A stretch of DNA of 25,636 nt. Source: a virus. Both the position numbers and the translations under genes were made by a program. Each line of letters starts with the position of its first letter. Within the stretch, counting starts at the first letter, position 1. Location of the stretch: IMG/VR virus record IMGVR_UViG_3300032753_001470, positions 1 through 25,636 of that record. One strand, written 5' to 3'. The notes under the pieces are model-generated. The model ran no database searches, was not told the origin of the DNA, and saw nothing but the letters and a program-made list of their open reading frames with translations. Positions 5,797 to 25,636 of the stretch are shown here, in pieces.

Positions 5797-5850
5797 GTGC
5801 CCGATCATAATAATAGTATATTACCCTCGTCGTCAGAGGATAACTATATA

Positions 5851-5876
5851 TTGTCCACTAAAAGTTTAGTGGGCAA
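5851..5876 (+). promoter_or_regulatory. Leader hairpin upstream of hydrolase
   Basis: An 11-bp stem, TTGTCCACTAA (5851-5861) with TTAGTGGGCAA (5866-5876), one G-U pair, loop AAGT. It lies between the ATAAATA motif and the hydrolase start at 5962. There is no following T-run, so it is more likely a leader structure than a terminator. Confidence 0.55.
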
Positions 5877-5961
5877 GGCTAATTTTTATAGGAGACATAT
5901 CGACAGCCAAAATAACCATGACGGTGGTAGCGACACCTCATCCAGCGTAAAGGAGAAAAAA

Positions 5962-6492: not shown

Positions 6493-6500
6493 GGACAACT

Positions 6501-6848: not shown

Positions 6849-6856
6849 TCCAAGGG

Positions 6857-6863
6857 CTAAATA
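6857..6863 (+). promoter_or_regulatory. Late-type promoter motif CTAAATA
   Basis: CTAAATA, one base off ATAAATA. Its predicted start near 6870 precedes CAGGAG (6873-6878) and the ATG at 6887, so here the spacing suits a working late promoter with a normal leader. Confidence 0.5.
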
Positions 6864-6886
6864 TACTATAAACAGGAGTAGGCAAA

Positions 6887-7576: not shown

Positions 7577-7587
7577 AATAATTGAAC

Positions 7588-7615
7588 AAATAAGGACTTG
7601 CAAAAGTCCTTATTT
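7588..7615 (+). terminator. Perfect 12-bp hairpin with GCAA tetraloop
   Basis: AAATAAGGACTT (7588-7599), GCAA loop of the stable GNRA class, AAGTCCTTATTT (7604-7615). It follows the structural-gene stop by 11 nt. The T-rich 3' arm could serve as a weak terminator, but there is no separate T-run. It overlaps the promoter for the next gene. Confidence 0.6.
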
Positions 7616-7625
7616 CAAGTATAAT
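7598..7625 (+). promoter_or_regulatory. Sigma70-type promoter overlapping the hairpin
   Basis: TTGCAA (7598-7603), 16 bp, TATAAT (7620-7625). The ATG at 7632 is only 6 nt beyond the -10 box, so transcripts from it would be leaderless or nearly so. Confidence 0.45.
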
Positions 7626-7631
7626 TACAGG

Positions 7632-8882
7632 ATGATACTAGCTTACTTACTCTTACTAACTGGTTTAACAATTTCGGCGGTCGCTATTTACTACTCTGTA
7701 GTAGGTTTGACCGCTATTTTTTCCGCGGCTGTTATTCCCATTATGATTATGGGTTCGGCTTTGGAAATTGGTAAACTTGTCTGCGCCTCTTGGTTAAAAG
7801 CCAATTGGGAACGTGCTCCACGTTTCATGAAAATCTACATGACTATAGCAGTCGTAGTATTGATGCTTATTACATCAATGGGCATTTTTGGATTCCTTTC
7901 AAAAGCCCACAATGACCAAAATTTAGTGTCAGGTGATGTTCAATCTAAATTGGCAATATATGATGAAAAGATCAAAACAGCCAAAGAAAATATTGAAAGT
8001 GACCGTAAACAACTTAAACAGATGGACGAAGCTGTTGATCAAATCTTAGCTCGTTCAACCACAGAAGGCGGAGCAGACAAGGCCAATGCTGTACGTAAAA
8101 GTCAGCAACGAGATCGCAGTTCACTTGCCAAAGATATCGAATCTAATCAAAAGGTCATTGCTGATCTTAACGAACAGTCGGCACCAATCCGAGCAGAGAA
8201 TCGTAAAGTGGAAGCTGAAGTTGGTCCTATCAAGTATATTGCGGCATTCATATACGGTGCAAATCCAGATGCATCATTACTTGAAAGTGCAGTAACATGG
8301 ATCATTATAATGATTGTTATAGTGTTTGACCCACTAGCAGTTATTATGTTACTTGCTAGCCAAATGACTTTTGCATGGGCGAGAGAACAAAAAGAAGAAG
8401 AACATCCTACTATTGCCGAATTAGATACCTTTGTTGGAGAAAAGCCAACCAAAGAAGAATTGGAACAAATAACAGATCCAGAAGCTCCTCCATTAGAAGA
8501 AAAGGTTGAAGTAAAACCTGCTCCAATGGTATCAACAGTAGTTCCGATGGAAGAAATTGTTTTACCTACAGTAGTTACACAATTTGCCCTGCCGGATGTT
8601 GAAGTTCCAGATACTCCAGTTACAGAAGAAGAAGCTAGCGAGTTAGAAAAATGGAACAAGATGATTGAAGAAGCAGAACGTCAACTTGCCCAAGAAATAG
8701 AAAAAGAACAAGAAGCTAAAGTAGAAGAAAGCACAGTTGAAGAACGTGTTGCTCGTGGTGAAACTTATATTAATAACGAAGGCGATGAAGTATCTGCTAT
8801 CGACGACGAATCCGAAGAATCAAAAAAAAAGACGTACATGATGAAGGATTCGGAGGGAAATTCTATAACAATGAGCAGGTAA
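7632..8882 (+). CDS. Four-span membrane protein with coiled coil and acidic tail
   Basis: A 416-residue protein. Hydrophobic segments lie at about 2-22, 24-47, 67-90 and 221-246. Between the third and fourth is a charged coiled coil (95-195, with KAHNDQNLVSGDVQSKL and QQRDRSSLAKDIESNQ). After the last span an acidic, Pro- and Glu-rich tail runs to the end. The family is a conserved unknown of T4-like aquatic phages as far as I recall. Near its end the A9 run at 8822-8830 contains A_AAA_AAG; a -1 shift there would replace the last 16 residues with 42 others and stop at 8959, giving 442 residues. Confidence 0.82.
   Translation: MILAYLLLLTGLTISAVAIYYSVVGLTAIFSAAVIPIMIMGSALEIGKLVCASWLKANWERAPRFMKIYMTIAVVVLMLITSMGIFGFLSKAHNDQNLVSGDVQSKLAIYDEKIKTAKENIESDRKQLKQMDEAVDQILARSTTEGGADKANAVRKSQQRDRSSLAKDIESNQKVIADLNEQSAPIRAENRKVEAEVGPIKYIAAFIYGANPDASLLESAVTWIIIMIVIVFDPLAVIMLLASQMTFAWAREQKEEEHPTIAELDTFVGEKPTKEELEQITDPEAPPLEEKVEVKPAPMVSTVVPMEEIVLPTVVTQFALPDVEVPDTPVTEEEASELEKWNKMIEEAERQLAQEIEKEQEAKVEESTVEERVARGETYINNEGDEVSAIDDESEESKKKTYMMKDSEGNSITMSR
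8822..8831 (+). other. Candidate -1 frameshift site (A_AAA_AAG)
   Basis: The zero-frame codons TCA AAA AAA AAG contain A_AAA_AAG at 8825-8831, the same heptamer used by E. coli dnaX. The -1 frame then stays open to TGA at 8957-8959, overlapping the next start as ATGA. A 7-bp pairing, CGAATCC (8807-8813) with GGATTCG (8846-8852), encloses the site. A missing A in the assembly would give the same picture. Confidence 0.5.
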
Positions 8883-10528: not shown

Positions 10529-10583
10529 GTAGAGCGCCGTAAAGGGCCTACAAATTTACTTGCTTAATTATAAGGAGAAAATT
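10529..10583 (+). ncRNA. dnaK leader RNA element (copy 1)
   Basis: A 5'-terminal stem-loop closed by GTAG (10529-10532) and CTAC (10548-10551), with an inner GCC/GGC helix. In the DNA the outer repeat extends to 10 bp (AAATTTGTAG / CTACAAATTT). Then come CTTGCTTAATTATAAGGAG and the ATG. CTTA pairs with TAAG across ATTA, covering part of the ribosome site. A second copy precedes hsp20. Confidence 0.65.
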
Positions 10584-12491
10584 ATGAGCAAAATCATCGG
10601 TATCGATTTGGGTACAACAAACAGTTGCGTAGCTATCCTAGAAAATGGAGTAGCAAAAGTTATTGAAAATAGCGAAGGCGCACGTACAACACCATCAATC
10701 ATTGCATACACAAAGGACGAGATCCTAGTAGGTGCAACAGCAAAACGACAAGCAGTCACAAATCCAAAGAACACAATTTACGCGGCCAAGCGTCTTATTG
10801 GACGTAAGTTTGAAGAACAGGCTGTGCAAAAGGACATCGATTTGATGCCTTACAAGATTGTCAAAGCAGACAATGGCGATGCATGGATCGAAGCGAATGA
10901 CCAAAAACTAGCACCACAACAAGTGTCTGCTGAAGTACTTCGCAAAATGAAAAAGACTGCTGAAGACTATCTTGGACACGAAGTGACACAAGCAGTTATT
11001 ACTGTACCAGCTTACTTTAACGATAGTCAACGTCAAGCTACCAAGGATGCAGGACGTATTGCTGGCTTAGAAGTTCTACGTATCATTAACGAGCCAACAG
11101 CGGCCGCACTAGCATATGGTGTTGATAAAGAATCCAAGAAAGACCGTAAAATTGCCGTATACGACTTAGGTGGTGGTACATTTGATATTTCCATCATTGA
11201 AATCGCTAACCTAGACGGAGACAAGCAAATCGAAGTATTGTCAACAAACGGTGATACATTCCTAGGCGGTGAAGACTTTGACCAAGCTATCATGGACTAC
11301 TTGGTAGATGAGTTTAAGAAAGATTCAGGAATGGATCTAAAAACAGACGTGCTAGCATTGCAACGTTTGAAAGAAGCCGCAGAAAAGGCTAAGATTGAAT
11401 TGTCATCAAGTCAATCTACTAGCGTTAACTTGCCATACATTACAGCAGATGCAAGTGGTCCAAAACACATGAACGTTACTATCAGCCGTGCTAAGTTTGA
11501 AGCAATGGTTGAAGGCTTAATTGCTCGTTCAATTGAGCCATGTAAAGTAGCTATGGCAGATGCTAAAGTTACAGCCGCAGACATTGACGAAGTTATCCTA
11601 GTCGGTGGACAAACACGTATGCCTAAAGTACAAGAAGCAGTTGAGAAACTATTCGGTAAGGCTCCACGTAAAGACGTTAACCCAGACGAAGCTGTAGCCG
11701 CAGGTGCCGCAGTACAAGGCGCTGTGTTAGCAGGTGATAAGACAGACGTATTGTTGTTAGACGTAACTCCATTGACATTAGGTATTGAAACAATGGGTGG
11801 TGTGTTTACTAAGCTAATTGCTAAGAACACAACAATCCCAACTAAACACTCACAAGTTTTCTCAACAGCAGAAGACAACCAACCAGCTGTAACTGTCAAA
11901 GTTGCACAAGGTGAACGTGATTTGTTTAGATACAACAAATTACTAGGCGAATTCAACTTAGAAGGTATTGACCCAGCACCACGTGGTGTTCCACAAGTTG
12001 AAATTACTCTAGACATTGATGCTAACGGTATCTTGAATGTAAGTGCCAAAGATAAAAACACTGGCAAAGAAAACAAGATTACCATCAAATCTGATTCGGG
12101 ATTAACAGAAGCTGAGATCCAACGCATGGTTCGTGAAGCAGAAGAAAACGCAGAATCAGACAAGAAGCAGGCAGAATTGATCAATGCTCGTAATAATGCT
12201 GAAGGTACTACACACAGTATCAAAAAGGATTATGACAAGTATAAAGATCAATTGACTGAAGATGAGCGTACTAAATTCGAAGATGCAGTCAAATCAATCG
12301 AAGAGGCTTGCAAAGGCGAAGATAAGGAAGCAATCGATAAGTCAGTTCAAACTTTCTTTGAGGCCGCTGGTCCAGTAATGGCTAAGAAACAAGCCGCTGA
12401 ATCAACAACAGCAGAAACTCCAGCTCAATCAGCTGAAGGCCAAACTGTTGATGCTAGCTTCACAGAAGTTGACAATAAAGAAGAGAAGTAA
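10584..12491 (+). CDS. dnaK: DnaK (Hsp70) chaperone, full length
   Basis: A complete 635-residue DnaK, close to the usual 638. The ATPase motifs are present: [10 protein letters not shown] at the start, [10 protein letters not shown] near 195 and [10 protein letters not shown] near 340. The interdomain linker [15 protein letters not shown], the beta substrate-binding domain and the helical lid all follow; the end is [11 protein letters not shown]. It refolds and transfers client proteins in the cytoplasm with DnaJ and GrpE, which must come from the host because neither is here. The sequence resembles betaproteobacterial DnaK. Start at ATG 10584 follows AAGGAG. Full-length DnaK is rare in phages; it may aid virion folding or Fe-S transfer. 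Confidence 0.98.
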
Positions 12492-12497
12492 TATAAT
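12469..12497 (+). promoter_or_regulatory. Consensus sigma70 promoter inside dnaK 3' end, for hsp20
   Basis: Perfect TTGACA (12469-12474), 17 bp, perfect TATAAT (12492-12497). The -35 box lies within dnaK codons. The predicted start near 12504-12505 coincides with the first base of the leader element shared with dnaK. Confidence 0.85.
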
Positions 12498-12504
12498 TAA
12501 AAAC

Positions 12505-12559
12505 GTAGGGTGCCGATGGTCGGGGCCTACAAATTCTTGCTTAATATAAGGAGATAAAA
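12505..12559 (+). ncRNA. hsp20 leader RNA element (copy 2)
   Basis: Stem GTAGG (12505-12509) with CCTAC (12526-12530), inner stem CCGA/TCGG, then CTTGCTTAATATAAGGAG before the ATG at 12560. It shares GGGCCTACAAATT, CTTGCTTAAT and ATAAGGAGA with copy 1 while the apical loop differs. CTTA pairs with TAAG across ATA, again masking the ribosome site. Confidence 0.65.
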
Positions 12560-12982
12560 ATGCAATTAAGAGCAATAGACCCAGCACACTTAGCTAACCT
12601 AAGTAGAGCACTAGTAGGATTTGATCATATTTTCAATCAACACCTACAAACAACAAATGGAAACTATCCTCCACACAACATCGTGAAATATAGTGATAGC
12701 GAATATGCTATTGAAATAGCAGTCGCAGGTTTCAGTAAACCTGAAATCACAGTAGAAGTAGATCAAGATCAATTGATTGTAAAAGGCAAAAAAGCCGAAA
12801 CAACAGATTCAAGTGTTCAGTATCTACATCGTGGACTTGCTAGCCGTGATTTCGAGCAAACTTATACACTTGCCGAATACATGGAAGTTAAGGATGCAGA
12901 AGTTAAGGACGGTATGCTGATTATCAATATCGAGCGTATTGTGCCAGATGCGTTGCAACCACGTAGCATTACAATTAAATAA
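12560..12982 (+). CDS. hsp20: Small heat-shock protein Hsp20 (IbpA-like)
   Basis: A 140-residue alpha-crystallin protein. The domain spans about 35-130 with YAIEIAVAGFSKPEITVEV and the closing motif KDGMLIINIERI; the tail has the I-x-I anchor (SITIK) used for oligomer assembly. Its N-terminal part is like IbpA. It holds unfolding proteins for DnaK to refold. Hsp20 genes are a hallmark of T4-like cyanophages and relatives. Here it follows dnaK, has a consensus promoter and carries the dnaK-type leader element, so the two chaperones are likely coregulated. Confidence 0.95.
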   Translation: MQLRAIDPAHLANLSRALVGFDHIFNQHLQTTNGNYPPHNIVKYSDSEYAIEIAVAGFSKPEITVEVDQDQLIVKGKKAETTDSSVQYLHRGLASRDFEQTYTLAEYMEVKDAEVKDGMLIINIERIVPDALQPRSITIK

Positions 12983-12988
12983 TCAACC

Positions 12989-13006
12989 GGGGGAGGCAAC
13001 TCCCCC
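12989..13006 (+). terminator. GC-rich 7-bp hairpin with GCAA tetraloop
   Basis: GGGGGAG (12989-12995), GCAA, CTCCCCC (13000-13006), between hsp20 and clpS. It is very stable but lacks a T-run, so it may be an mRNA stabiliser or processing barrier rather than a true terminator. A second GCAA hairpin is at 7588-7615. Confidence 0.6.
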
Positions 13007-13025
13007 ACTTATAGAAAGAGAAAAA

Positions 13026-13328
13026 ATGCCAACTACAGATATCCAACTAGACGAAAAAGTTAAAGTAACTATTACAGAACCAAAGCGTTGGAAAGTTATT
13101 TTGTTGAACGATGACAGTACTCCTATGGAATTTGTCATTTCGTTGTTAATGGAAGTTTTTAAACACAATCAAAACTCTGCCCAGGATATCATGTTACAAG
13201 TGCATGAAACTGGAAGTGGAATCGCCGGTATCTATAGTTTTGAAATTGCTGAAGCTAAGGCTGTTGATGCAACTAATCTAGCTCGCAATAACAACCACCC
13301 ATTACAAATTAAATTGGAAGAAGAATGA
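13026..13328 (+). CDS. clpS: ClpS adaptor of the ClpAP protease
   Basis: A 100-residue ClpS with a short N-terminal extension and the core WKVILLNDDSTPMEFV (22-37), including the substrate-pocket N28, D29 and M34, then H60 in the VHETGSGIAGIYSFEIAEAK helix. It delivers N-degron substrates to ClpA. ClpA and ClpP come from the host. By supplying its own adaptor the phage could redirect host proteolysis. The start at 13026 follows an AGAAAGAGA ribosome site; its TGA overlaps the next ATG as ATGA. Confidence 0.95.
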   Translation: MPTTDIQLDEKVKVTITEPKRWKVILLNDDSTPMEFVISLLMEVFKHNQNSAQDIMLQVHETGSGIAGIYSFEIAEAKAVDATNLARNNNHPLQIKLEEE

Positions 13329-13876
13329 GCCTAAGAGAATTAACTAAGGAAGCACACACCAACGCAGAGCGTCAAGAGTTTGTAAAGATTCTCTTTAGTG
13401 GTACAATCAATCCTAAGCTCTATGCTACATACTTAAAAAATCAACATCCAATGTATGAAATTTTAGAAGTATGTGCAATGCCTCACCAAATTCTACATGG
13501 ACTACCAGACATTCGTCGTGCCCCTGCAATCCTAGCAGATTTCCAGGAACTATGGAAAGACGAAGATGGTGAAGTAGAACTACTACCTATTACAAACAAA
13601 TATATCAAATATATTTTAAGCATTAAAGACGATCCTAAGAAATTAATGGCACACATTTATGTTCGCCATATGGGAGATTTAGCTGGCGGACAAATGATTG
13701 CTAAACGTGTTCCAGGCAAAGGTCGTTATTATAAATTTGAAAACCCAGAAGAGTTAAAGGAAGCCATCCGTGCTAAAATTGACGATAGTATGGCCGACGA
13801 AGCAAAAGTATGCTTTGAGTACGCTACAGAATTTTTTAAGCAGATGATGGATCATGTTGAATACACCGACGAGTAA
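13325..13876 (+). CDS. Heme oxygenase (biliverdin-forming)
   Basis: A 183-residue all-helical protein of the HO-1 type. It has LRELTKEAHTNAE with the proximal heme ligand H11, and the distal-helix motif GDLAGGQ (117-123, usually GDLSGGQ) followed by the KRVPGKGRYYKFE segment. It opens heme to biliverdin, CO and iron. It overlaps clpS by ATGA and the bilin reductase by 23 nt, so the heme-to-bilin pair is translationally coupled. Phage ho genes occur in cyanophages and in marine viruses with pcyX. The product could feed the next enzyme or free iron for the phage Fe-S genes. Confidence 0.93.
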   Translation: MSLRELTKEAHTNAERQEFVKILFSGTINPKLYATYLKNQHPMYEILEVCAMPHQILHGLPDIRRAPAILADFQELWKDEDGEVELLPITNKYIKYILSIKDDPKKLMAHIYVRHMGDLAGGQMIAKRVPGKGRYYKFENPEELKEAIRAKIDDSMADEAKVCFEYATEFFKQMMDHVEYTDE

Positions 13877-14549
13877 AGTTTGGGATACTCTAATAAATAT
13901 TCAGCATTTATTGGAGACTAATTTTGGCAGGACTGGCACTGAAATCTTTGAACCCGAAATGGATCGATTCAACCAACCTGGGTGGGTTAATCGTGTATGG
14001 AGTTCTACTCTTTATCGCCGTGCTCATATTGATGTGGTTGATGCAAGAGATACGAAAGGGCTCTGGATGATGCATTGTTGCATCTTCCCTCATTTACACA
14101 ATCCTGCTCCTATTTTTGGATTTGATGTTATTGCTGGTAAAAACAAGATGACCGGCTGTTTCATTGACTATAGCCCTACAGAAGACAAGTTCCATCCTAT
14201 GCTAGACTACTTTGGCGAAGAAGTATCACGCTATGAATGGTTCAAAAAGCGTGAACTACCCGACTGGGCTAAACGTATTTTTAGCCAGCATATGGTAGCC
14301 GCAGGCAACGTTAGCAATGACAGCGAACTAGCACAGATTAGCAGTTTAGCCCACATTCTAGTAAATCATTACCTAGAAACAGTAGGCGAAACTAATAATC
14401 GTGTAGTTGATACTACAGTATTTCAAAACTATTACTGCGATAATCAAAAACAAAACCCGCATACACCTAAGGTTATGGCTAGTTTAGGCTTAAACGAGGA
14501 AGATGTGCGTGTTTTCATACAGGATTGCCTCTTCCCTAACATCGCATAA
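13854..14549 (+). CDS. Ferredoxin-dependent bilin reductase (PebS/PcyX-like)
   Basis: A 231-residue FDBR, near the 233 of phage PebS. Recognisable landmarks are STLYRRAHIDVVDAR, MMHCCIFPHLHNPAPIFGFD, AGKNKMTGCFIDYSPT and a C-terminal YYCDNQKQNPHT. H74 (MHCC) and D91 (FGFD) line up by memory with catalytic His88 and Asp105 of PcyA; D60 replaces Glu76. FDBRs reduce biliverdin to phycobilins using ferredoxin. Non-cyanobacterial phages are reported to carry the PcyX type beside ho, and this arrangement fits that. PebS versus PcyX cannot be settled by eye. The role in a non-photosynthetic host is unknown. Confidence 0.9.
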   Translation: MLNTPTSKVWDTLINIQHLLETNFGRTGTEIFEPEMDRFNQPGWVNRVWSSTLYRRAHIDVVDARDTKGLWMMHCCIFPHLHNPAPIFGFDVIAGKNKMTGCFIDYSPTEDKFHPMLDYFGEEVSRYEWFKKRELPDWAKRIFSQHMVAAGNVSNDSELAQISSLAHILVNHYLETVGETNNRVVDTTVFQNYYCDNQKQNPHTPKVMASLGLNEEDVRVFIQDCLFPNIA

Positions 14550-16358: not shown

Positions 16359-16386
16359 ATACGAAGACTTAGTGGGAGCGAATACC

Positions 16387-16854
16387 ATGTCGAAAAAGCT
16401 ATTAGTAGCATTGTCATTGTTGCCATCACTAACGATGGCGGCACCTTTAAACGACTTTACATTTAAAAGTCCAGCATTTAACGGCAACGGATACGGTACA
16501 TACGTACTAACTATCGAAAACGAGCAATATACTCGTCAACAAACAATTAATCAAGCAGTACAGGCCGCCGCACAGCAGGCAAAAGCAGACGCGGCTAATA
16601 CTCCTATTAATCAGTTTTTAACAAACTTAGAATCACGCATCTACGCACAAATTAGTCAAAATACTGCCACTGCTATGTTTAGCGGTAGTTCAAGTACTTG
16701 CGTAAGTAGCGCGGCTTGTTCATTCCAATTTGATGCTAATACTAGTATTAGTTGGTACTGGGCAGGATCTAATATTGTAATGCAAGTTACACAACCTAGT
16801 GGTTCTAGTACTATTACTGTGCCGACTGGTTCCTTTAACATGACCGGACATTAA
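16387..16854 (+). CDS. csgF: CsgF-like curli assembly factor
   Basis: A 155-residue secreted protein. The signal peptide ends at TMA (18), giving a mature start APLNDFTFKSPAFNGN that keeps the FxFxxPxFxGN motif with which CsgF enters the CsgG pore in E. coli. A helical stretch NTPINQFLTNLESRIYAQIS and C-terminal beta strands follow, also as in CsgF. CsgF sits at the outer mouth of the pore and couples secretion to fibre nucleation. ATG 16387 is chosen behind GGGAG. It is 1 nt upstream of csgG, the usual partner. Confidence 0.9.
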   Translation: MSKKLLVALSLLPSLTMAAPLNDFTFKSPAFNGNGYGTYVLTIENEQYTRQQTINQAVQAAAQQAKADAANTPINQFLTNLESRIYAQISQNTATAMFSGSSSTCVSSAACSFQFDANTSISWYWAGSNIVMQVTQPSGSSTITVPTGSFNMTGH

Positions 16855-16855
16855 A

Positions 16856-17998
16856 ATGAAAAAAGGATTAATTGCCCTAGCCATCATTTCAGCTTTAAGC
16901 GGTTGTGCAATAACACAAAAGATGGGTGTAGAGTACAAGCCAGAAGTTGCAGAACGTAAACTACAAAAAGAATTCGACACAGTACCATTACCTAATGGTC
17001 CAAAAGTCACAGTAGCAGTATACAGTTTTAAAGATCAAACTGGACAGCGTAAAGCAGTTAGCTCTTATGCTAGCTTCTCAACAGCAGTCACACAAGGTGC
17101 TGAACCATTCTTAATCAGCGCACTACAAGATGTTGGACACGGCACATGGTTTGATGTTGTTGAACGTGTTAACATTGATAATTTAATTAAAGAACGTACT
17201 ATTATCAAGCAAATGCGTGATATGTATGAAGGCCCAAATGCCAAACAGTTGATGCCATTGCAGTTTGCAGGCATTATTATTGAAGGCGGCATCATCGGCT
17301 ACGATAGTTCGAGCGAGAGTGGCGGTGCCGCATACCGTTGGTTAGGCATTGGTCCACAGACTCAATATAGCAAAGATATCGTTACCATTAGTCTACGTGC
17401 TGTTAGCGTAAACACTGGTAAAGTGCTGGCAACTGTATCAGTTACAAAGACTGTATACAGTACAGCAGATAGTTTTGCTATGTTGAAATTCTTCAACGAT
17501 GGCACACAAGCCTTTGAAGGAGAAACTGGATTAACTATTAACGAACCCGGTACCTTAGCAGTTAAAGCAACTGTTGAAGCCGCAGTAGTTGAGTTAATTA
17601 AAGAAGGACAACGCAAGGCTGTGTGGGACTTTAGAGAACCACCTAAGCCAGTAGTGTTGAATAAAATTGAAGAAGCGGCGCCTATAGTAGCTGAAGCACC
17701 TAAACCACAACCAAAAGTGGCCGAAGATATGGCAGTGAAAGAAGGCATAGCTCCTCCAGTTGTAACTAAAAATGACCCACCACCTGCTGAGGAAATAAAG
17801 TATCTTAAATCGGCGGCCTATTTGTATGCAAAACCTGAGTCAGGTGCGCAAAAACGCTGGCAGTTGAAAGAAGGTACACGTTTAAATGTTAAGAGAAAAG
17901 ATGAGGGATGGTGGTTTGCTAAAGACGATAATGGACATGGCGGATATGTCCAAGAAAATGATTTAACAGACGAGGTAAAAGCAGTAACCAAAAAATAA
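16856..17998 (+). CDS. csgG: CsgG curli secretion channel with C-terminal SH3 domain
   Basis: A 380-residue lipoprotein; E. coli CsgG has 277. The lipobox LSGC places the lipid-modified Cys at 17. The CsgG domain (about 20-260) has KVTVAVYSFKDQTGQ, FSTAVTQGA, IIEGGIIGYDS, LGIGPQTQY, ISLRAVSVNTGKVL and a final AVWDF. E. coli forms a nonameric outer-membrane pore. A Pro/Ala-rich linker (262-314) leads to an added SH3-like domain (about 316-371, ending GWWFAKDDNGHGGYVQ), expected to face the periplasm and perhaps bind peptidoglycan. The constriction loop RKAVSSYASFSTAV differs from the E. coli pattern. csgE is absent. Confidence 0.95.
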   Translation: MKKGLIALAIISALSGCAITQKMGVEYKPEVAERKLQKEFDTVPLPNGPKVTVAVYSFKDQTGQRKAVSSYASFSTAVTQGAEPFLISALQDVGHGTWFDVVERVNIDNLIKERTIIKQMRDMYEGPNAKQLMPLQFAGIIIEGGIIGYDSSSESGGAAYRWLGIGPQTQYSKDIVTISLRAVSVNTGKVLATVSVTKTVYSTADSFAMLKFFNDGTQAFEGETGLTINEPGTLAVKATVEAAVVELIKEGQRKAVWDFREPPKPVVLNKIEEAAPIVAEAPKPQPKVAEDMAVKEGIAPPVVTKNDPPPAEEIKYLKSAAYLYAKPESGAQKRWQLKEGTRLNVKRKDEGWWFAKDDNGHGGYVQENDLTDEVKAVTKK

Positions 17999-18003
17999 CA
18001 AGA

Positions 18004-18049
18004 GGACTTAGGTCCCAGGAGCAGTGCCAGAGATTAGAAATTTGGCACT
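18004..18049 (+). promoter_or_regulatory. Hairpins between Shine-Dalgarno and start of curlin gene
   Basis: A small hairpin GGAC-TTAG-GTCC (18004-18015) is followed by AGGAG (18017-18021) and a 7-bp stem AGTGCCA/TGGCACT (18023-18029, 18043-18049). The ATG is at 18058. The AGGAG lies 36 nt from the ATG, but folding the stem out leaves about 9 nt, a normal spacing. Confidence 0.6.
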
Positions 18050-18057
18050 AGAACAAT

Positions 18058-18921
18058 ATGGTTCAAAGTAAAAAAGGCGCTGGCAGTTTGTCGAGAAAAG
18101 TAACTGCAATGCTTGTGTTGTCTGCAATGGCAACATTGGCGAATGCGGCTGATAATAGCATCTATATTAATCAGTCTGGTAGTAGTAGCACAATTAACAT
18201 GACACAAGATGGCGCAGGCAACGTAGTGCGCGGAGTGCAAGGAGTTGGTGGCGGCAATACTACACCAGCAACAATCAACGGTGATAGTAACACAGTTAAT
18301 GTAACACAAACTGGAACAGGTAGTACATTAAACTTTGGTATTCAAACTACCATTGCCAATGGTTCTCCTTTGCAGAATGGTAATACATTTGATTATAGTG
18401 TAACTGGTAACAACGCTACAGCAACTATCGATAGTAACAACAATGGTGCTGGAACTAGTGCTAGTAACTATTTGAATGTTACTCAAGCTGGTAACTATGC
18501 TGGATTAAATGCCAACATTTTAGGTAGTAACAACAGTATCACAGCATCAACAGCTGGCGGCAGTAACAATACTATTGTAACAACTACCAATGGTAACAGC
18601 AATACACAAACTATTGCAGTAACTGGCGGTGGTGCTAACTCTGTAACTATTAATCAAGGTATTGGCGGAACAGCAGTAGCCAGCGGTAACACAGCAACTA
18701 CTAACAACAATGGTGTGGTAAACCTTACTATCACTGGTGCAAGTAACACCGTAGCTATTGCACAAACTAGTGCTGGTTATGCTGATACAACTGTACTAGC
18801 ATTAAACGGTAGTAACAACAATGCAACTATTGTGCAAAATGCAAGTGCTGGTAACACAACAGTGAATGTACAAAGCACTGGTAGCAGTAACACATTTAAT
18901 ATCCGTAGTAATGCACACTAA
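18058..18921 (+). CDS. Curlin-like repeat protein (CsgA/CsgB-like)
   Basis: A 287-residue secreted protein. The signal peptide runs through LANA (about 30) after a basic n-region (SKKGAGSLSRK). The mature chain is almost entirely Asn, Ser, Thr, Gly and Gln in curlin-type strand repeats such as SIYINQSGSSSTINMTQDG, SNTVNVTQTG and GASNTVAIAQTS, with regularly placed Q and N. E. coli CsgA and CsgB polymerise into extracellular amyloid through such repeats. It is a likely cargo of the CsgG pore just upstream. No good ribosome site lies close to ATG 18058; the hairpin-spaced AGGAG is proposed. At the DNA level the repeats are Asn-Asn (AACAAC/AACAAT) rich. Confidence 0.9.
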   Translation: MVQSKKGAGSLSRKVTAMLVLSAMATLANAADNSIYINQSGSSSTINMTQDGAGNVVRGVQGVGGGNTTPATINGDSNTVNVTQTGTGSTLNFGIQTTIANGSPLQNGNTFDYSVTGNNATATIDSNNNGAGTSASNYLNVTQAGNYAGLNANILGSNNSITASTAGGSNNTIVTTTNGNSNTQTIAVTGGGANSVTINQGIGGTAVASGNTATTNNNGVVNLTITGASNTVAIAQTSAGYADTTVLALNGSNNNATIVQNASAGNTTVNVQSTGSSNTFNIRSNAH

Positions 18922-19094
18922 TGTATAACGGTCAATTCTTGCAAATGATGTATCAGCAATGGTGTAATGGTAATGACTCATACACTTATGCTTGGAAAGA
19001 TTTTGTAGAATTGGCCGCTAGACATAATGCAGTTACAACAGAGTTAATGTTAGAAGAACTAAAAAAGTATAGCTGGTTCAGCTGGAGGGATTGA
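18921..19094 (+). CDS. Small protein of 57 residues
   Basis: ATG overlaps the curlin stop (TAATG) and the TGA overlaps the FecR start (TGATG), so it is tucked between both genes and likely coupled. The product, MYNGQFLQMMYQQWCNGND onwards, is soluble, Tyr- and Trp-rich and helical (WKDFVELAARHNAVTTELM), ending KKYSWFSWRD. It has no signal peptide. I do not recognise it. GGAGGGA near its end serves as the ribosome site of the next gene. Confidence 0.7.
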   Translation: MYNGQFLQMMYQQWCNGNDSYTYAWKDFVELAARHNAVTTELMLEELKKYSWFSWRD

Positions 19095-20227
19095 TGAAAT
19101 TATGGGTTTTAATTTTTTCGTTACTAATTACATTAAATGCCTACGCTGGAATAGGAACTATAACAGAGCAGGTCGATACACCACCATCTATTGTACGTTC
19201 TAAAACTACACTAACTGGTGCCAAGGGTACCGGTGTTGAAATGGCAGACGCCATTAACACAACCAAAGGCAAAGTAGGTATTACATTTGCTGATGATACA
19301 AAAGTAGAAGTAAACGAAAACAGTAAACTGGTAATCGACGACTTTGTCTATGATCCTAAATCAAGCAAAGGCGGCAAACTAGCTATGAAGTTTGCTAGCG
19401 GTACTGTCAAGTATGCTAGTGGTGCAATCGCACACAATGATCCCTCCAAAGTAGCTATCAATACTCCAAGTGCAACTATTGGTGTGCGCGGCACTGACTT
19501 TACTGCAACAGTAGATGATGCTGGTGTTAGTACAATTATCTTGTTGCCCAGCTGTCCTATTAACAAAATTATTCGTGACATTGAAGCAGAATGTAAAGTA
19601 GGAAAAATTGAAGTTTATAATGATGCAGGTAGTGTCCTATTAGACAAAGCGTTTCAAGGCACTAAAGTAGAAAGTCGCGGAGTTGCTCCAATGAAACCCG
19701 CTGTATTAAAATTATCACTAGATACCATTAATAATTTATTGATTGTTAGTCCACCGTCAGAATTAAACAAGAAAGATAAGATAGAATCTCAGACTAGAGT
19801 ACTACAGGTAGGTGATATGTTAGCTGTAAATTATCTACAACAAAACTTTTTACAAAACGAATTTGATAAAGAAGGCCCAGTTTGGGATAACCCATTAGCT
19901 AAACCACTACTACAACAATACTTCTTAGAAGATATTTTCAATATTTTAAGCCAACAGTTGCAACAAGAAGCCGCGGCTCTGTTGAGTAATCAACTAAATC
20001 CACAGGCACAATTATTTCCAGATTGGTTTAAAGCCAGTTTAGTAACTAAAGAAGTAACACCTACAACAGCAACACTATGTCGCCCAGACGGCAGTAGTAA
20101 CGTAGCTTGTATCAGTGTACCCAAAGATCAAAATACAACAACTTTTATTCAACAAGCAGATGGCGTGAATATTAAGAACCGTATCAATGCTGGCGGCAAT
20201 ACTATTATTACACTAAAGCAGAATTAA
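19094..20227 (+). CDS. Secreted FecR-domain protein
   Basis: A 377-residue protein with a signal peptide (MKLWVLIFSLLITLNAYA) and a FecR-type beta domain: IVRSKTTLTGAKGTGVEM, DAINTTKGKVGITFADDT, NSKLVIDDFVYDPK, then INTPSATIGVRGTDFTATV. FecR domains sit in the periplasm and take part in signalling or surface assembly. The second half has Gln/Asn/Leu-rich helices (LLQQYFLEDIFNILSQQLQQ) and ends in NTIITLKQN, like a single curlin strand. ATG 19094 follows GGAGGGA. FecR-domain genes are often found beside CHASE2 cyclase genes; a CHASE2 cyclase occurs 3.9 kb downstream. Confidence 0.88.
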   Translation: MKLWVLIFSLLITLNAYAGIGTITEQVDTPPSIVRSKTTLTGAKGTGVEMADAINTTKGKVGITFADDTKVEVNENSKLVIDDFVYDPKSSKGGKLAMKFASGTVKYASGAIAHNDPSKVAINTPSATIGVRGTDFTATVDDAGVSTIILLPSCPINKIIRDIEAECKVGKIEVYNDAGSVLLDKAFQGTKVESRGVAPMKPAVLKLSLDTINNLLIVSPPSELNKKDKIESQTRVLQVGDMLAVNYLQQNFLQNEFDKEGPVWDNPLAKPLLQQYFLEDIFNILSQQLQQEAAALLSNQLNPQAQLFPDWFKASLVTKEVTPTTATLCRPDGSSNVACISVPKDQNTTTFIQQADGVNIKNRINAGGNTIITLKQN

Positions 20228-20228
20228 T

Positions 20229-22412
20229 ATGAAACGTTTTCTTACAATATTCTTTTCATTACTAATGATTCATTTAACTGGGTATAGTCAGTATGCGTTC
20301 TCTGGCGATTTACCCACCGGCTATTTGGGAAGTGTGTTATCATATACTAATGTTGGTAATATACAAACATACAATTATAGTTTTACTCCTACAACAACCG
20401 GATTAGACTATGTTGGTTTTGCATTTAGACAAGATCCTGGATGGTGGACATTTACCGCTCCTAAAGTAACATTAAGCAATTCAACAACTAACTTACTGCT
20501 AAATGGAAATTTACAATATGGTGGAACTGTATCTAGTGTAGGTATACAAGCCCCTGCCGATTGGGGTGTATGGTATCAAACTGGTGCAGTCCCATATGCG
20601 GCTGGTAGCTGGAGTCCTTATCAATGGTATGACGGGGCTGTTGGTAGTTATGATGGTATCTATCAAGGTCTTAGTGTAACTGCAGGTTCAACATACAATA
20701 TTAGTTTTAGTTTATTAGGTACTGATCCGTCTCAAAATCCTTCAATCGAAGTAGGAACATATTTTGGTTCGTGTGCTAACGGCTCTACGTTGTTTAGTTG
20801 TACTCCTGTAAGTACCGCGGGGTTTACAGTAATGGCGACTCCAGCGCAAACACAGGGAACAGGTGGAGCACCTACAGTAACTAGTACAAGTTCTGCTAAC
20901 TCAAATAGTACTGTTATCATAGGCAATCAGCAAGTGGTGTTAACTACAACTACAACCACGACCCACTGGAGTGATGGCACTACAACTACTAGTACAAGTA
21001 CATCACAGAATGCTCTATCAAGTTCAGCGTTCACCGGAGTACATTTTGGCCCTAGTCAAGTAGCAGATACACAGTGGAACGTTAATGCTTGTATGAATAC
21101 AACAACTTGCCAAGTCTACAGCACCTTGCCAGGCGTAACTTACGAAACAGGTAGTCGCCTAACTATTGGTGCTACACAATATATTACATTTATTCCTAAC
21201 ACAGGTGGCGACAGTTCAACATATCCATGGACTATGATTTTAGTTAATGCAGATGGTACATTTACAGCCCTAGGAACAGGACGTATACTAGTTGAAGGTG
21301 TTGATAGTTCAGGACATATATTTTTATTTTTTACCAATAGTACATTAAACGTAACATTATTAAGTGGCAACGTAGGTTTAACAGGACAAGGTGCTACATT
21401 CACAGGTACTGCTAGTCCTTCAGCAACAGCTACAAACACACTATCAGGCGGAATGAGTGCTACACCATTATCGGCTGGACAAACTGGCGGTACTGGCGGC
21501 GCAGTTGCTCCTACCGTAGTAAGTACAAGTAATAGTGTGATTACTACAACTTCAACAAATGGTGCAACTGTTAATACATACAGTCAACCTGTAACTATTA
21601 CAACTTGGAGTGATGGTACAACTACTACTGCTAACAATGGTAGTGCTACGCTAATTAGTTCAACTATTACAGGTAGTAGTGGCGGAACAACCACCGGGCA
21701 ACAAAACGATATCAATGCTTTCAATGGTAATGCTATTAACGGTAGTGGTATATACATCCGTCAGAGTGGTAATAATGACATCATTAATATTACGCAAGTG
21801 GGTACGCATAATTTAATTGGCGGTGTTAATACACAGTTTGCCGCAGTACAAAATGGTAACAACACTATCAATATTAAACAAGGAAATGGTAACGGTAGTA
21901 AGAACGAACTTGATATGAGTCTTGTTGGTGGAAGCAACAATCTAACAGTTACGCAGTCTTATGATGTTAATAGCACAAGTGCAGGTAATAACTATCAAAA
22001 AGTAAATGTCAACGGATTTAGCAATACTGTAACTACCAGCCAAACTAACGATGGTGGCTTGCAAGGACATTTTGCTGAAATTGATGTTACTGGAAATTAC
22101 AATAGTGTAAGTGTTACTCAGAGTAATAACACACAAAAACAAGCGTTCGTATCAGCTAACGGTAACAACAATACAATTCAAACTACACAAACAGGTACCG
22201 GCGCACATTATGTAAGTGTAACAGAAGTGGGCAATGGTAATAGTGCTGTAGTTAATCAAAGTGGAAGTGTTGCTAATACAGCAACAATTACCTTAACTAA
22301 CGCTGGTGCGCCTGCCAGCGTTAATTTAACTCAAACAGGCGGACAAAGTTACGGTGTACAACAAACTTGCTACACTACTTGCGGCACAATTACAGTAAGA
22401 CAGGGCAACTAA
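20229..22412 (+). CDS. Large secreted modular protein with curlin-like C-terminus
   Basis: A 727-residue protein. A signal peptide precedes SQYAFSG (about 19-24). The N-terminal module (about 25-215) is beta-rich with paired Trp (FRQDPGWWTF, APADWGVWYQ) and resembles secreted carbohydrate-binding sandwiches. A Thr/Ser-rich part contains two copies of WSDGTTTT, one near 250 and one near 460, flanking a central domain with Cys pairs (NACMNTTTC). From about 510 to the end, curlin-type repeats appear: IYIRQSGNNDIINITQVG, NNTINIKQGNG, SNNLTVTQS, NNNTIQTTQTG. It could be an adhesin displayed on curli-type fibres. No strong ribosome site is seen. Confidence 0.85.
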   Translation: MKRFLTIFFSLLMIHLTGYSQYAFSGDLPTGYLGSVLSYTNVGNIQTYNYSFTPTTTGLDYVGFAFRQDPGWWTFTAPKVTLSNSTTNLLLNGNLQYGGTVSSVGIQAPADWGVWYQTGAVPYAAGSWSPYQWYDGAVGSYDGIYQGLSVTAGSTYNISFSLLGTDPSQNPSIEVGTYFGSCANGSTLFSCTPVSTAGFTVMATPAQTQGTGGAPTVTSTSSANSNSTVIIGNQQVVLTTTTTTTHWSDGTTTTSTSTSQNALSSSAFTGVHFGPSQVADTQWNVNACMNTTTCQVYSTLPGVTYETGSRLTIGATQYITFIPNTGGDSSTYPWTMILVNADGTFTALGTGRILVEGVDSSGHIFLFFTNSTLNVTLLSGNVGLTGQGATFTGTASPSATATNTLSGGMSATPLSAGQTGGTGGAVAPTVVSTSNSVITTTSTNGATVNTYSQPVTITTWSDGTTTTANNGSATLISSTITGSSGGTTTGQQNDINAFNGNAINGSGIYIRQSGNNDIINITQVGTHNLIGGVNTQFAAVQNGNNTINIKQGNGNGSKNELDMSLVGGSNNLTVTQSYDVNSTSAGNNYQKVNVNGFSNTVTTSQTNDGGLQGHFAEIDVTGNYNSVSVTQSNNTQKQAFVSANGNNNTIQTTQTGTGAHYVSVTEVGNGNSAVVNQSGSVANTATITLTNAGAPASVNLTQTGGQSYGVQQTCYTTCGTITVRQGN

Positions 22413-22416
22413 TCAG

Positions 22417-22423
22417 ATAAATA
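22417..22423 (+). promoter_or_regulatory. Late-type promoter motif ATAAATA
   Basis: ATAAATA four nt after the preceding stop. The predicted start near 22430 precedes AAAGG (22440-22444) and the ATG at 22450, so it fits a promoter for the small genes that follow. Confidence 0.5.
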
Positions 22424-22449
22424 ATAGTAGCAGTTAATGAAAGGCTATT

Positions 22450-22584
22450 ATGTTTGCATTGTATTTCGCGGCGGCCGGTTTCTTCACTGTGTTCGGATGG
22501 AACGCAGGTCAAATAGTGTGGGACAAGTATATAGATCCCCCAGCAATAGAACAACCAGCAGTAAAAAATGAAAGAACCAAGTAA
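22450..22584 (+). CDS. Tiny membrane protein, 44 residues
   Basis: MFALYFAAAGFFTVFGWNAG opens a hydrophobic segment (1-23), followed by QIVWDKYIDPPAIEQPAV and a basic end. An AAAGG ribosome site and an upstream late-type motif support it. The Cys-free, single-span layout is common for small phage membrane proteins of unknown role. It overlaps the next ORF by 17 nt. Confidence 0.65.
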   Translation: MFALYFAAAGFFTVFGWNAGQIVWDKYIDPPAIEQPAVKNERTK

Positions 22585-22687
22585 GAAAACCTGGGTGGAT
22601 CACTATGAGCGTGTTGTTGACAATGTGCTAAGAATACTATGGTTAATACTATTAATTACATGGATATATGACGGACACAGATTATGA
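22568..22687 (+). CDS. Tiny membrane protein, 39 residues
   Basis: A basic N-terminus (MKEPSKKTWVDHYERV) leads to one hydrophobic helix (LRILWLILLITWIYDG) and ends HRL. Its start is inside the previous small gene and its TGA overlaps the next ATG as ATGA, a packing that supports real translation. It has no strong ribosome site and may be coupled. I do not recognise it. Confidence 0.6.
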   Translation: MKEPSKKTWVDHYERVVDNVLRILWLILLITWIYDGHRL

Positions 22688-23328
22688 AAAAAACTATTGC
22701 ACTATTTCTGCATGATCCTAAATGTAGTGTACAAAGCGGTAACGGTATTATGAAAGCCCTAAGCGGCCGTTACAATTTTAAAATCTTTGGAAAGAATCCT
22801 GTTGAAGAAAACTTTTTCAAACACGTAGATATGGTAGCAATACCTGGAGGGTTTGGAGATAGTGATAGTTTTGATGTATCATTTAGACATAATCTTTGGG
22901 AAGTTAAAGAATACGTAAAACATGGCGGTAGATACTTAGGAATATGTATGGGCGCCTATTGGGCAGGATCTAATTACTTCAATATATTAGAGGGTGTGGA
23001 TGCTGTACAATATTTAAAACGCCCAGGTACAGATACTCGTAGACCTCATGCTAAAAACATAGCGATAACATGGCGCAATAAACCTATGAATATGTTTTGG
23101 TATGATGGCTGTGCTTTAGTAGGTAATCCAAGCAAATTTGAAACAGTTGCTACCTATGCAAACGGCGATGCTATGGCTATTATGCAAAATCGCATAGGTT
23201 TAATAGGATGCCACCCAGAAAGTGAGAAATTCTGGTATGACGGCTATAGTTGGATGCGTCGACATTGGCATGAAGGGCATCATCATGCCTTACTTTTAGA
23301 ATTTGTCAGTGAGCTAATGCACAGATAA
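22684..23328 (+). CDS. Class I glutamine-amidotransferase-like protein (BPL_N type)
   Basis: A 214-residue GATase1-fold protein with VAIPGGFGDSD (51-61), the nucleophile C88 in YLGICMGAYWAG, and H177/E179 in IGCHPESE forming a Cys-His-Glu set. The family resembles BPL_N, the N-terminal domain of eukaryotic biotin-protein ligase, found alone in bacteria and phages with unknown role. It may be a hydrolase or amidotransferase on an unknown substrate. It starts by ATGA overlap with the tiny membrane ORF. The TAA stop lies inside an ATAAATA motif. Confidence 0.83.
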   Translation: MKKTIALFLHDPKCSVQSGNGIMKALSGRYNFKIFGKNPVEENFFKHVDMVAIPGGFGDSDSFDVSFRHNLWEVKEYVKHGGRYLGICMGAYWAGSNYFNILEGVDAVQYLKRPGTDTRRPHAKNIAITWRNKPMNMFWYDGCALVGNPSKFETVATYANGDAMAIMQNRIGLIGCHPESEKFWYDGYSWMRRHWHEGHHHALLLEFVSELMHR

Positions 23329-23331
23329 ATA
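23325..23331 (+). promoter_or_regulatory. ATAAATA motif before tail-lysozyme-like gene
   Basis: ATAAATA with the upstream TAA (23326-23328) inside it; the ATG at 23336 is only 4 nt on. No ribosome site is seen. It mirrors the arrangement at 14546. Confidence 0.38.
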
Positions 23332-23335
23332 CTGA

Positions 23336-24094
23336 ATGAAGATATTTGAACTAATTAACGAAGAAGATGATCCTTTAGGGCAATTTATACAGAAAAAAGG
23401 GCTTTCTTCTAATTCACCAGCAGATAAATTTGCGGCCGCAATCGAGCAAGAAGACGAGATTTCCAAAATAGCTACGGGTAAACTTAGCCCTGCTTCATTG
23501 CATAGTAGAGAACCTGTTCCTAAAGCTACTGCAACACCAGTTCCTACTTCTCAAGTTAAACCTACTCAGCTACCTCCTGCAAAACCAGCACAAGCACAAG
23601 CACCTGTAAAAACAGCACAGGCACCAACAACTGCAAAACCAACATCAACACCTGCCCCTAAAGTTAATATTCAACAACCGGCAGGATCTATTCCTTGGAA
23701 AGATATTGCTAACTATTGCAGAACAAAATGGAATATGAGCGTAGAGCAAGTAGCTGGCATGCTAGCTAATGTACAAGCAGAGTCTGGGTTTATTGCTAAC
23801 AAACAATGGATAGACAGTAATGGTTTACCAGCCGGCGGATTATTTTCACACAACGGTGTAAGATTCCAAGCACTTACTCAAGCACTTGGTAATAATTGGA
23901 AACAAAATTGGCAAGGACAAGTTGATTTTGCAATGAATGAAAAAGAAGGTCGTACATACAGAGCATCACAATATTCTAGTCCTACACAGGCTAGTCAGGC
24001 ATGGACTAAGATTTTTGAAAGACCAAGACATGCTAATAGACAAGCTGTTATCCGTGCTCCAGCATCGACTCAATATTATAGTGGAATGAAATGA
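23336..24094 (+). CDS. Tail-lysozyme-like protein with capsid-targeting-like N-terminus
   Basis: A 252-residue protein. The N-terminus MKIFELINEEDD resembles the T4 internal-protein leader MKTYQEFIAEA, with INE at 7-9 as a possible prohead-protease cut. A Pro/Ala/Lys/Gln-rich linker spans about 60-112. The C-terminal domain (about 118-250) resembles phage tail lysozymes: VEQVAGMLANVQAESGF with probable catalytic E149, AGGLFSHNGVRFQAL, then NWQGQVDFAMNE. It would cut peptidoglycan, perhaps on entry if packed in the virion. No signal peptide. It overlaps the cyclase gene by ATGA. Confidence 0.82.
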   Translation: MKIFELINEEDDPLGQFIQKKGLSSNSPADKFAAAIEQEDEISKIATGKLSPASLHSREPVPKATATPVPTSQVKPTQLPPAKPAQAQAPVKTAQAPTTAKPTSTPAPKVNIQQPAGSIPWKDIANYCRTKWNMSVEQVAGMLANVQAESGFIANKQWIDSNGLPAGGLFSHNGVRFQALTQALGNNWKQNWQGQVDFAMNEKEGRTYRASQYSSPTQASQAWTKIFERPRHANRQAVIRAPASTQYYSGMK

Positions 24095-25636
24095 TTAAGA
24101 AAATATTATTAAGTCCATGGACAGCACTTTTAACGCTAGCAATAGTGTTATGTATTCGCATTGAAGATCCAAAATTTGTCGAGAGTATAAAATTAAATTA
24201 CTTCGATACACTCATATCATCAAAAGCACCAACTGAAAATAACATATATACTGTTAATATAGATGAAGCTTCAATTGACAAATATGGATGGCCAATACCA
24301 AGAGCAGACTATGCTAAAATCGTACGAGATTTATACTCGCACGGAGCAGGGCTTGTTGTACTTGATGTACTCATGTCTGAAACAGACCGCACAGGTGGAG
24401 ATAGTGCGCTGGGTCAAACTCTAAGTAAGTATCCAGTAGTACTTACTAGTGTAACATCAAATAAAACTAAAAATACTCCACGTGCTCCTGGAAGTGCTGT
24501 AATTGGAGCGGAAAACATTGGAGCATTAAACGAAGTAACTTATGCTGGCCTTATTGCCAACGTTCCTCAATTAGAAAATGCCGCGGCAGGAGTTGGTATT
24601 ATTAGTACTATGACAGAAGTTGATGGTGTTACTCGTCGCCTTCCTTTAGTAGTTGCTGTAGATGATAAACTTTATCCAGGTCTTGCTTTAGAAACCTTAC
24701 GTGTCGCTACAGGTAATACAACATTTCAAATTAAACTAAGTCCGCTTGGCGTAGACAAAATGCGATTGCCAGGTGACATTGGTATCATTACTACAGATGC
24801 TAAAAGTCGTGTATGGGTAGACTGGAGTCAAAAGAATAAACAAGTATCACTATCAAATTTACCTAAAGACTTTGGTGGTGCTATTGTAATCGTTGGACCT
24901 ACTGCGGCTGGTATTGCTAATCCTGTGCCTACTAGTTTAGGATCGGTATGGCCACAAGATGTACAAGCCGCCGTAATGGGCACTATGATTAATAAAGTTG
25001 TTATCGAGCGACCAGCATGGGCTGACTATGCCGAAATCGGTGCTTTAGCAGTAATGGGCATAGTATTACTATTTTTAACAAGGTGGACTTATGTTGGACT
25101 TGCTAGTGTTATTGGTTTTATTCTTATTTCTGTTTTTGGTAGCAGATATGCTTTTAACAATTACCTTTACCTTATTGACAGTTCTTTGTTGGTTTGTGGG
25201 GTTATATTGGTTAGTTTACATGCTTATGGGATTAAGTTCGTAAGTGAATTTTTACAAAAACAACAAATTAAAAAACAATTTGGTAGTTATGTAAGTCCTG
25301 TTATTGTAGAACGATTACAAAAAAATCCAGAACTTATTAAATTAGGCGGCGAAGAAAAAATGCTTACAGCAGTTATGACTGATATGCGTAACTTTACTGG
25401 ACTAGGCGAAAAGTACGGTGCAGACGTACAAGGTTTTACTAAAATCATGAACGAATACATGACTGCTATAAGCCAGCCTGTATTTGACAATGACGGATGT
25501 TTGATCAAATTTATTGGGGATGCAAGTTTACACATACATGGAGCTCCGTTAGATGATGCTAACCATGCTGTCCATGGAGTTAAGACTGCATTAGAAATGA
25601 TTGAATCGGTTGAAAAATTTAATGAAAAATTAGTCG
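24091..25636 (+). CDS. CHASE2 / class III adenylate or guanylate cyclase (3' truncated by window)
   Basis: An open frame of 515 codons runs off the window. An N-terminal signal anchor (LLSPWTALLTLAIVLC) precedes a CHASE2 periplasmic sensor (about 30-300): YTVNIDEASIDKYGWPIPRADYA, GLVVLDVLMSE and VGIISTMTEVDGVTRR. Three hydrophobic segments follow (about 313-375), then KKQFGSYVSPVIVERL and a class III cyclase domain: TAVMTDMRNFTGLGEK with metal Asp, then LIKFIGDASLHIHGAP with the second Asp and a Lys typical of ATP use. It should make cAMP (or cGMP) in the cytoplasm in response to a periplasmic signal. Start overlaps the lysozyme stop by ATGA. Confidence 0.92.
   Translation, partial: MIKKILLSPWTALLTLAIVLCIRIEDPKFVESIKLNYFDTLISSKAPTENNIYTVNIDEASIDKYGWPIPRADYAKIVRDLYSHGAGLVVLDVLMSETDRTGGDSALGQTLSKYPVVLTSVTSNKTKNTPRAPGSAVIGAENIGALNEVTYAGLIANVPQLENAAAGVGIISTMTEVDGVTRRLPLVVAVDDKLYPGLALETLRVATGNTTFQIKLSPLGVDKMRLPGDIGIITTDAKSRVWVDWSQKNKQVSLSNLPKDFGGAIVIVGPTAAGIANPVPTSLGSVWPQDVQAAVMGTMINKVVIERPAWADYAEIGALAVMGIVLLFLTRWTYVGLASVIGFILISVFGSRYAFNNYLYLIDSSLLVCGVILVSLHAYGIKFVSEFLQKQQIKKQFGSYVSPVIVERLQKNPELIKLGGEEKMLTAVMTDMRNFTGLGEKYGADVQGFTKIMNEYMTAISQPVFDNDGCLIKFIGDASLHIHGAPLDDANHAVHGVKTALEMIESVEKFNEKLV

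Follow-up and report, generated by a model that had tools for sequence, protein, structure and literature searches.

Does a virus make its own receptor-controlled nucleotide cyclase and, if so, with which partners would this enzyme work? The question is raised by a viral contig of 25,636 nucleotides (IMG/VR record IMGVR_UViG_3300032753_001470, positions 1 to 25,636; the whole stretch is called the window here). The original prediction, made from the letters alone, had read the last open reading frame of the window as a CHASE2 sensor joined to a class III cyclase domain, had placed it in one transcription unit with a lysozyme-like gene and had paired it with a FecR protein. It had also regarded a virus making its own regulated second messenger as unusual and had suggested that it could reset host genes under cAMP control.

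Reading frame and domains of the viral cyclase

The reading frame starts with ATG, comprises 515 codons of about 680, as full-length relatives have about 680 amino acids, and is still open at the end of the contig. In the domain search, CHASE2 reached 132.5 bits against a cut-off of 26.3. The Guanylate_cyc match at residues 426–512 scored 18.0 bits, below the cut-off of 21.9 bits, because only half of the domain is present; in full-length relatives, taken from 20 large phage records, the cyclase domain was above the cut-off in every record. Hydropathy and the structural model of a full-length relative (locus L002, pLDDT 91) agree on the topology of a CHASE2 receptor, with one membrane helix before the domain and three after it. 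In the model, a helix at residues 10–26 is followed by the CHASE2 fold, and three membrane helices lie within residues 310–396, the last of them continuing into the linker. On the C-terminal side, a cyclase fold (420–605) precedes a helical tail, and the catalytic half matches CyaB of Pseudomonas aeruginosa (PDB 3r5g) with a TM score of 0.90 by target length at 31% identity.

Both metal-binding aspartates (Asp431 and Asp477) and the ATP-type Lys473 are in place, as had been predicted. These three positions are invariant across all 159 aligned viral relatives, and the transition-state Arg is present in each of the 155 that reach that far. The reading frame encodes a CHASE2 receptor followed by the initial half of a class III nucleotide cyclase domain, and the domain assignment of the original prediction stands.

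The cyclase gene belongs to a curli cluster

Positions 16372–25636 of the window hold csgF, csgG, curlin and FecR genes alongside the cyclase, as is characteristic of the phage curli or type VIII secretion system (T8SS) cluster. All genes share one strand and are separated by −4 to 271 bases; their order is csgF, csgG, curlin-like, FecR, curlin-like, amidotransferase, lysozyme, cyclase (Table 1).

Table 1. Features of the curli cluster and of the cyclase gene in the window
Feature	Position	Strand	Basis or remark
CsgF homologue	16372..16854	+	profile E=1.4e-49
CsgG (curli outer-membrane pore), SH3-like C-terminus	16856..17998	+	Pfam 1.6e-45
Curlin-like repeat protein (CsgA/B-like)	18058..18921	+	profile from Melnitz and HTVC008M curlin-associated proteins, E=1e-44
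Exported FecR-domain protein (predicted)	19091..20227	+	Pfam 1.6e-10; phrog_37870 5.8e-111; model
Second, larger curlin-like repeat protein	20229..22412	+	profile E=1e-38
Protein like class I glutamine amidotransferases; insertion between the curlin and cyclase genes	22684..23328	+	few relatives elsewhere
Phage_lysozyme2 (tail-lysozyme) protein	23336..24094	+	overlaps cyclase by ATGA
CHASE2 receptor nucleotide cyclase gene, 5' three quarters	24091..25636	+	ORF, Pfam, full-length relatives
N-terminal transmembrane helix, residues 2–24	24094..24162	+	hydropathy; helix in L002 model
CHASE2 domain, residues 16–324, predicted periplasmic	24136..25062	+	Pfam 2.6e-38; L002 model pLDDT 91
Transmembrane helices 2–4, residues 310–385	25018..25245	+	hydropathy; L002 model
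Linker helix region, motif KFVSEFLQKQQIKKQF, sensor/cyclase exchanges concentrated here	25204..25290	+	breakpoint analysis
Class III cyclase domain, first half	25366..25636	+	Pfam, alignment; Asp431 codon 25381, Lys473 codon 25507, Asp477 codon 25519

The first curlin-like protein gave no match to Pfam curlin, and the number of curlin repeats counted with a crude pattern was inside the range of shuffled sequences. The curlin identity therefore rests on the profiles made from annotated phage curlins.

Among phages, the conserved order is csgF-csgG-curlin-FecR-curlin-cyclase. Of the 118 viral loci that extend 6 kb or more upstream, 94 have csgF, csgG, curlin and FecR all on the strand of the cyclase; overlapping contigs were kept in this count. 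These four genes are the conserved partners of the cyclase. The lysozyme-like gene had been assigned to the same transcription unit, because its stop (24094) and the cyclase start (24091) overlap in ATGA. The overlap is real, but the link is incidental: in a comparison with 239 loci the Phage_lysozyme2 gene was present in the window only, and the amidotransferase gene in six loci, which marks the overlap as a local insertion and not as a conserved link. One match to the T4 late promoter TATAAATA was found in the window, and none near the cluster; Rfam and tRNA scans of the window gave no matches.

The window carries further genes of host-like character. Overlapping genes for a heme oxygenase and a ferredoxin-dependent bilin reductase lie at 13325–14549; the cultured relatives of this phage infect non-photosynthetic bacteria. 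At 4659–5337 and 10560–13328, an IscU scaffold protein (profile-checked) and HesB/IscA-like, DnaK, small heat-shock-like and ClpS-like proteins (read from sequence) are encoded; so large a set of host-like genes with protein-folding and iron-sulphur functions is unusual. A TRAP-type solute-binding protein (2611–3588; DctP, 2.4e-49) has no obvious signal peptide, and the transporter subunits are absent from the window. The protein encoded at 3597–4631 has an ATP-loop motif like that of asparagine synthase and QueC, with weak matches only.

The cyclase is a member of a published phage family

A search of IMG/VR for relatives of the cyclase found 349 encoding stretches, and an alignment-based search at least 600. 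Among annotated phages, only Melnitz (four strains, 39% identity) and HTVC008M (34%) have a relative; the window cyclase matches those of HTVC008M and Melnitz with E=8e-85 and 2e-96, respectively, over 98–99% of the query, and phrog_35576 with 1.1e-156. A T4-type capsid protein was matched in 12 of 20 large carrier records, and several records exceed 300 kb. An "adenylate cyclase" together with FecR was published in 2022 as part of the curli (type VIII secretion) cluster of pelagiphages (PMC9599517). The window gene is a member of this published family, and a cyclase made by a phage, called unusual in the original prediction, had already been annotated in HTVC008M and Melnitz.

A junction between phage and bacterial DNA, which had been named as a possible artefact, is excluded. 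The reading frame does end with the contig, and bacterial homologues exist, so that an assembly error or a bacterial gene on a contig mis-called as viral had to be considered. However, between 11973 and 25569 the window has a collinear counterpart in an independent contig, that of the closest viral locus (L001), and two cultured phage species have the same cluster. Viral relatives are 45–82% identical to the window cyclase among the alignment-based matches listed, whereas the bacterial matches found reach at most 32%. We regard the artefact as refuted and its probability as negligible.

Two catalytic types of the phage enzymes

The viral enzymes fall into catalytic types, which we name by three letters, the first for the second purine residue and the others for the two transition-state residues. 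Among the 155 that reach the C-terminal half, 93 are DSR, 60 TNR and 2 SNR, with no mixed combinations. In a catalytic tree calculated without the two diagnostic columns, DSR forms one clade with full support, although deep branches of this FastTree phylogeny are unsure. The best 80 bacterial relatives comprise 73 SNR enzymes, 6 TNR enzymes and a sole DSR enzyme, that of locus L151. A search of 289 alphaproteobacterial genomes for further DSR enzymes, from which 30 loci were read, returned 29 SNR enzymes and the DSR enzyme of the query locus.

In the window copy the second purine position and the two transition-state positions lie beyond the end of the contig; in its closest relatives the second purine residue is Asp. 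Six of six diagnostic residues within the window frame agree with DSR (I416 just upstream of the domain, G439, I472, S479, H481 and H483). The window enzyme is thus probably of the DSR type, with Ser in place of the transition-state Asn and with the Arg kept. An active site of this kind is apparently new for phage cyclases. Absence of the transition-state Asn and Arg had been named as evidence against a working cyclase. Half of this is probably borne out, as the Asn is replaced in the predicted DSR type; there the Arg is retained. Lack of the Asn does not refute activity, since active cyclases without it are known: Rv1900c, which has His for Asn and is said to use both ATP and GTP, and others (PMC4886424), and XC_0250, which lacks Asn and Arg and makes cGMP (PMC3770947).

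Sensor and catalytic halves are exchanged at the linker

Distances between sensor halves and between catalytic halves of 119 non-redundant viral sequences are nearly unrelated (r 0.23–0.28). Within the sensor and within the catalytic part, by contrast, the two halves agree with each other (r 0.87 and 0.93, respectively). Comparable decoupling was absent from 76 bacterial relatives, in which the sensor-catalytic correlation was 0.78–0.83. Along the gene, the change is located within residues 362–407. For 54 non-overlapping pairs, the best breakpoints have a median at residue 378 (interquartile range 372–385, L002 numbering), where the linker that follows the last membrane helix is most conserved; such estimates can be pulled by a conserved stretch or by unequal rates in the two halves, but the block structure is independent of them.

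Single pairs illustrate this structure in both directions. Loci L171 and L197 are 99% identical in the sensor and 65% in the catalytic part; for L001 and L215 the values are 50% and 98%, respectively. The window itself is 85% identical to L001 in the sensor and only 52% in the catalytic part, which groups with those of L017 and L002 (85–86%). Mapping of the catalytic type onto the sensor tree gives about 20 changes, 11–12 of which are forced by well-supported branches, deep branches being unsure in this FastTree phylogeny as well; DSR enzymes form a single clade by their catalytic part but are dispersed across the sensor tree.

Chimeric assembly might account for single pairs. As a general cause it is insufficient, because the cultured phage Melnitz shows the exchange, with a catalytic part 86–88% identical to those of L199 and L224 and a sensor only 33–34% identical, and because twelve or more separate changes occur on the sensor tree. 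Judged from the sequences, the two halves have been swapped between phages at least 11–12 times, at the linker. Repeated swapping of this kind has apparently not been described before; in the open-access literature searched, neither CHASE2 in phage genomes nor a sensor/cyclase domain exchange had been reported.

FecR as a predicted exported partner

The pairing of FecR with CHASE2, which the original prediction had likened to one in proteobacteria, was recovered both in the phage clusters and beside bacterial CHASE2 cyclases. FecR is called an iron-dependent regulator in PMC9599517. The window protein has a signal-peptide-like start followed by the FecR domain at residues 55–147; a cytoplasmic N-terminus before one membrane helix, as in a FecR-type anti-sigma factor, was not found in it. 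Because of this start, which leaves no room for a cytoplasmic part, and of a structural model that resembles the periplasmic signalling domain of PupR, we take the protein for a putative exported partner rather than an anti-sigma factor. The correlation of FecR distances with sensor distances (r=0.47) is no stronger than that of CsgG with the sensor (r=0.46), so that no specific contact between FecR and CHASE2 can be claimed. The last 60 residues of the FecR model form a confident beta region, similar to a curlin repeat, with an invariant Gln at its end. From the model, FecR itself may perhaps dock to curli.

Bacterial relatives next to secretion genes

Of 55 bacterial loci whose upstream sequence was long enough, 25 have a FecR gene on the cyclase strand, usually at a distance of some 100 bases, and none has csgF, csgG or curlin. 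Genes for type I secretion (ABC or HlyD) occur near 23 of the 80 best bacterial relatives, a raw count on the fetched flanks, and often adjoin the cyclase directly. In six loci (L118, L129, L151, L153, L154 and L160), an HlyD protein with an N-terminal cNMP-binding domain is encoded directly upstream. Further cNMP-binding proteins are encoded directly downstream of the CHASE2 cyclase in L118, L129, L153, L154 and L160. On the contig of L151, from a single cell of marine SAR116, genes for ABC-C39, cNMP-HlyD, the CHASE2 cyclase and FecR stand in a row (1328–8706), which suggests control of type I secretion by a cyclic nucleotide. Judging from these gene neighbourhoods, the link of the bacterial relatives to type I secretion and FecR is apparently new.

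Proposed function and alternatives

We consider it fairly probable that the phage enzyme is a receptor cyclase that couples the state of the envelope or of curli export to cAMP, which is read by a receptor of the host. Starting from the architecture, the conserved metal and ATP-type residues, the gene cluster and the modular exchange of halves, as far as they can be read from the sequences, we give here the most probable reading of product, ligand, activation by FecR and curli, and host receptor. The periplasmic CHASE2 domain would be held by one N-terminal and three further membrane helices and would act with FecR and the curli-export proteins of the same cluster. Some state of the curli-export apparatus, or of the envelope of the infected cell, would turn the cyclase on, and the linker helix would carry the signal from CHASE2 to a homodimeric class III cyclase in the cytoplasm. 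The product of this cyclase is most likely cAMP, and the cyclic nucleotide would be bound by a host receptor of the CRP type. The host receptor must be assumed because a cNMP-binding domain (PF00027) was found in none of 20 phage records, two of them complete isolate genomes, compared with 10 of 14 control genomes.

The predicted DSR type, without the transition-state Asn, counts against this reading. One alternative, which we regard as unlikely, is that DSR enzymes are active cyclases whose product differs or is less strictly defined (cGMP or both nucleotides), so that exchange of TNR and DSR cassettes would switch the message. It would agree with the joint change of Asp and Ser versus Thr and Asn, with the contrast between one catalytic clade and its scatter on the sensor tree, and with the precedents of Rv1900c and XC_0250. 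However, a single ancestral change within one clade would couple the residues equally, and with Lys and Asp the DSR enzymes have the pair of residues that classically specifies ATP. In mammalian cyclases, turnover falls when the transition-state Asn is lost, and DSR proteins might be weakened or inactive as cyclases and be retained as envelope sensors or scaffolds. We find this improbable, as a dead enzyme is expected to drift, whereas every DSR enzyme has kept the metal Asp pair, Lys, Asp and Arg, and the fold is intact in the L002 model and its match to CyaB. For the CsgGF pore of Melnitz, a role as pinholin or secretin has been proposed (PMC9004378), and the whole cluster, including the cyclase, could in the same way time lysis. 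The lysozyme-like gene overlapping the cyclase would suit this role, but among the loci compared it is peculiar to the window, and the curlin-like proteins and FecR, for which a lysis model has no need, are conserved with the cyclase; timing of lysis is thus distinctly improbable.

The receptor cyclase might also be part of an exchangeable platform. A fast-varying CHASE2 sensor, matched to the surroundings of the phage, would repeatedly be rejoined to one of two cyclase cassettes, the DSR cassette having a different or differently tuned output, and the path from envelope signal to second messenger would be re-wired during curli export. We offer this as a speculation that is unlikely to hold. 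If the receptor-cyclase reading is true, a virus with a regulated second messenger and an export pore would exert an unusual kind of host control, in phages widespread in water. The swapped halves provide natural chimeras for testing signal transfer in CHASE2 receptors.

Comparison with known systems

CyaB of P. aeruginosa shares the catalytic fold with the phage enzymes but has another sensor and keeps the transition-state Asn. The T8SS cluster of pelagiphages (PMC9599517; HTVC008M AGE60353.1, Melnitz QZI95054.1) has the same order, and its cyclase is homologous over the whole length at 34–39% identity. The window differs from it by the inserted amidotransferase and lysozyme genes and is without a cultured close relative. 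CHASE2 is not named in the text of PMC9599517, and we found no mention there of a Ser-for-Asn active site or of an exchange of halves. The SAR116 locus L151 encodes a DSR catalytic domain of the phage type, about 66–71% identical to those of phages. In contrast to the phages, it is associated with type I and not type VIII secretion, has its own cNMP-binding protein and carries a distantly related sensor half.

Two bacterial systems combine FecR with CHASE2. In Burkholderia contaminans, a biofilm operon encodes a LysM-FecR protein and a CHASE2 histidine kinase (PMC5192318); as in the phages, a FecR protein adjoins a CHASE2 sensor, here tied to surface and biofilm behaviour, but the output is a histidine kinase and not a cyclase. 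CyaD1 of Sinorhizobium meliloti is a CHASE2 receptor cyclase that signals through the CRP-type Clr, becomes constitutive once CHASE2 is deleted and has the FecR protein SMc02177 as its neighbour (PMC5498481). Like the phage enzymes, it joins a CHASE2 receptor to a class III cyclase and is encoded next to a FecR-domain protein; it differs in being bacterial and in controlling root infection via its own adjoining Clr, whereas the tested phages encode no such receptor. From the FecR and secretion neighbours of the bacterial relatives, from CyaD1 and from the Burkholderia pair, we infer that phage and bacterial CHASE2 cyclases report on, or control, surface export. The links to both type I and type VIII secretion suggest that this may be a general rule for FecR/CHASE2 cyclases.
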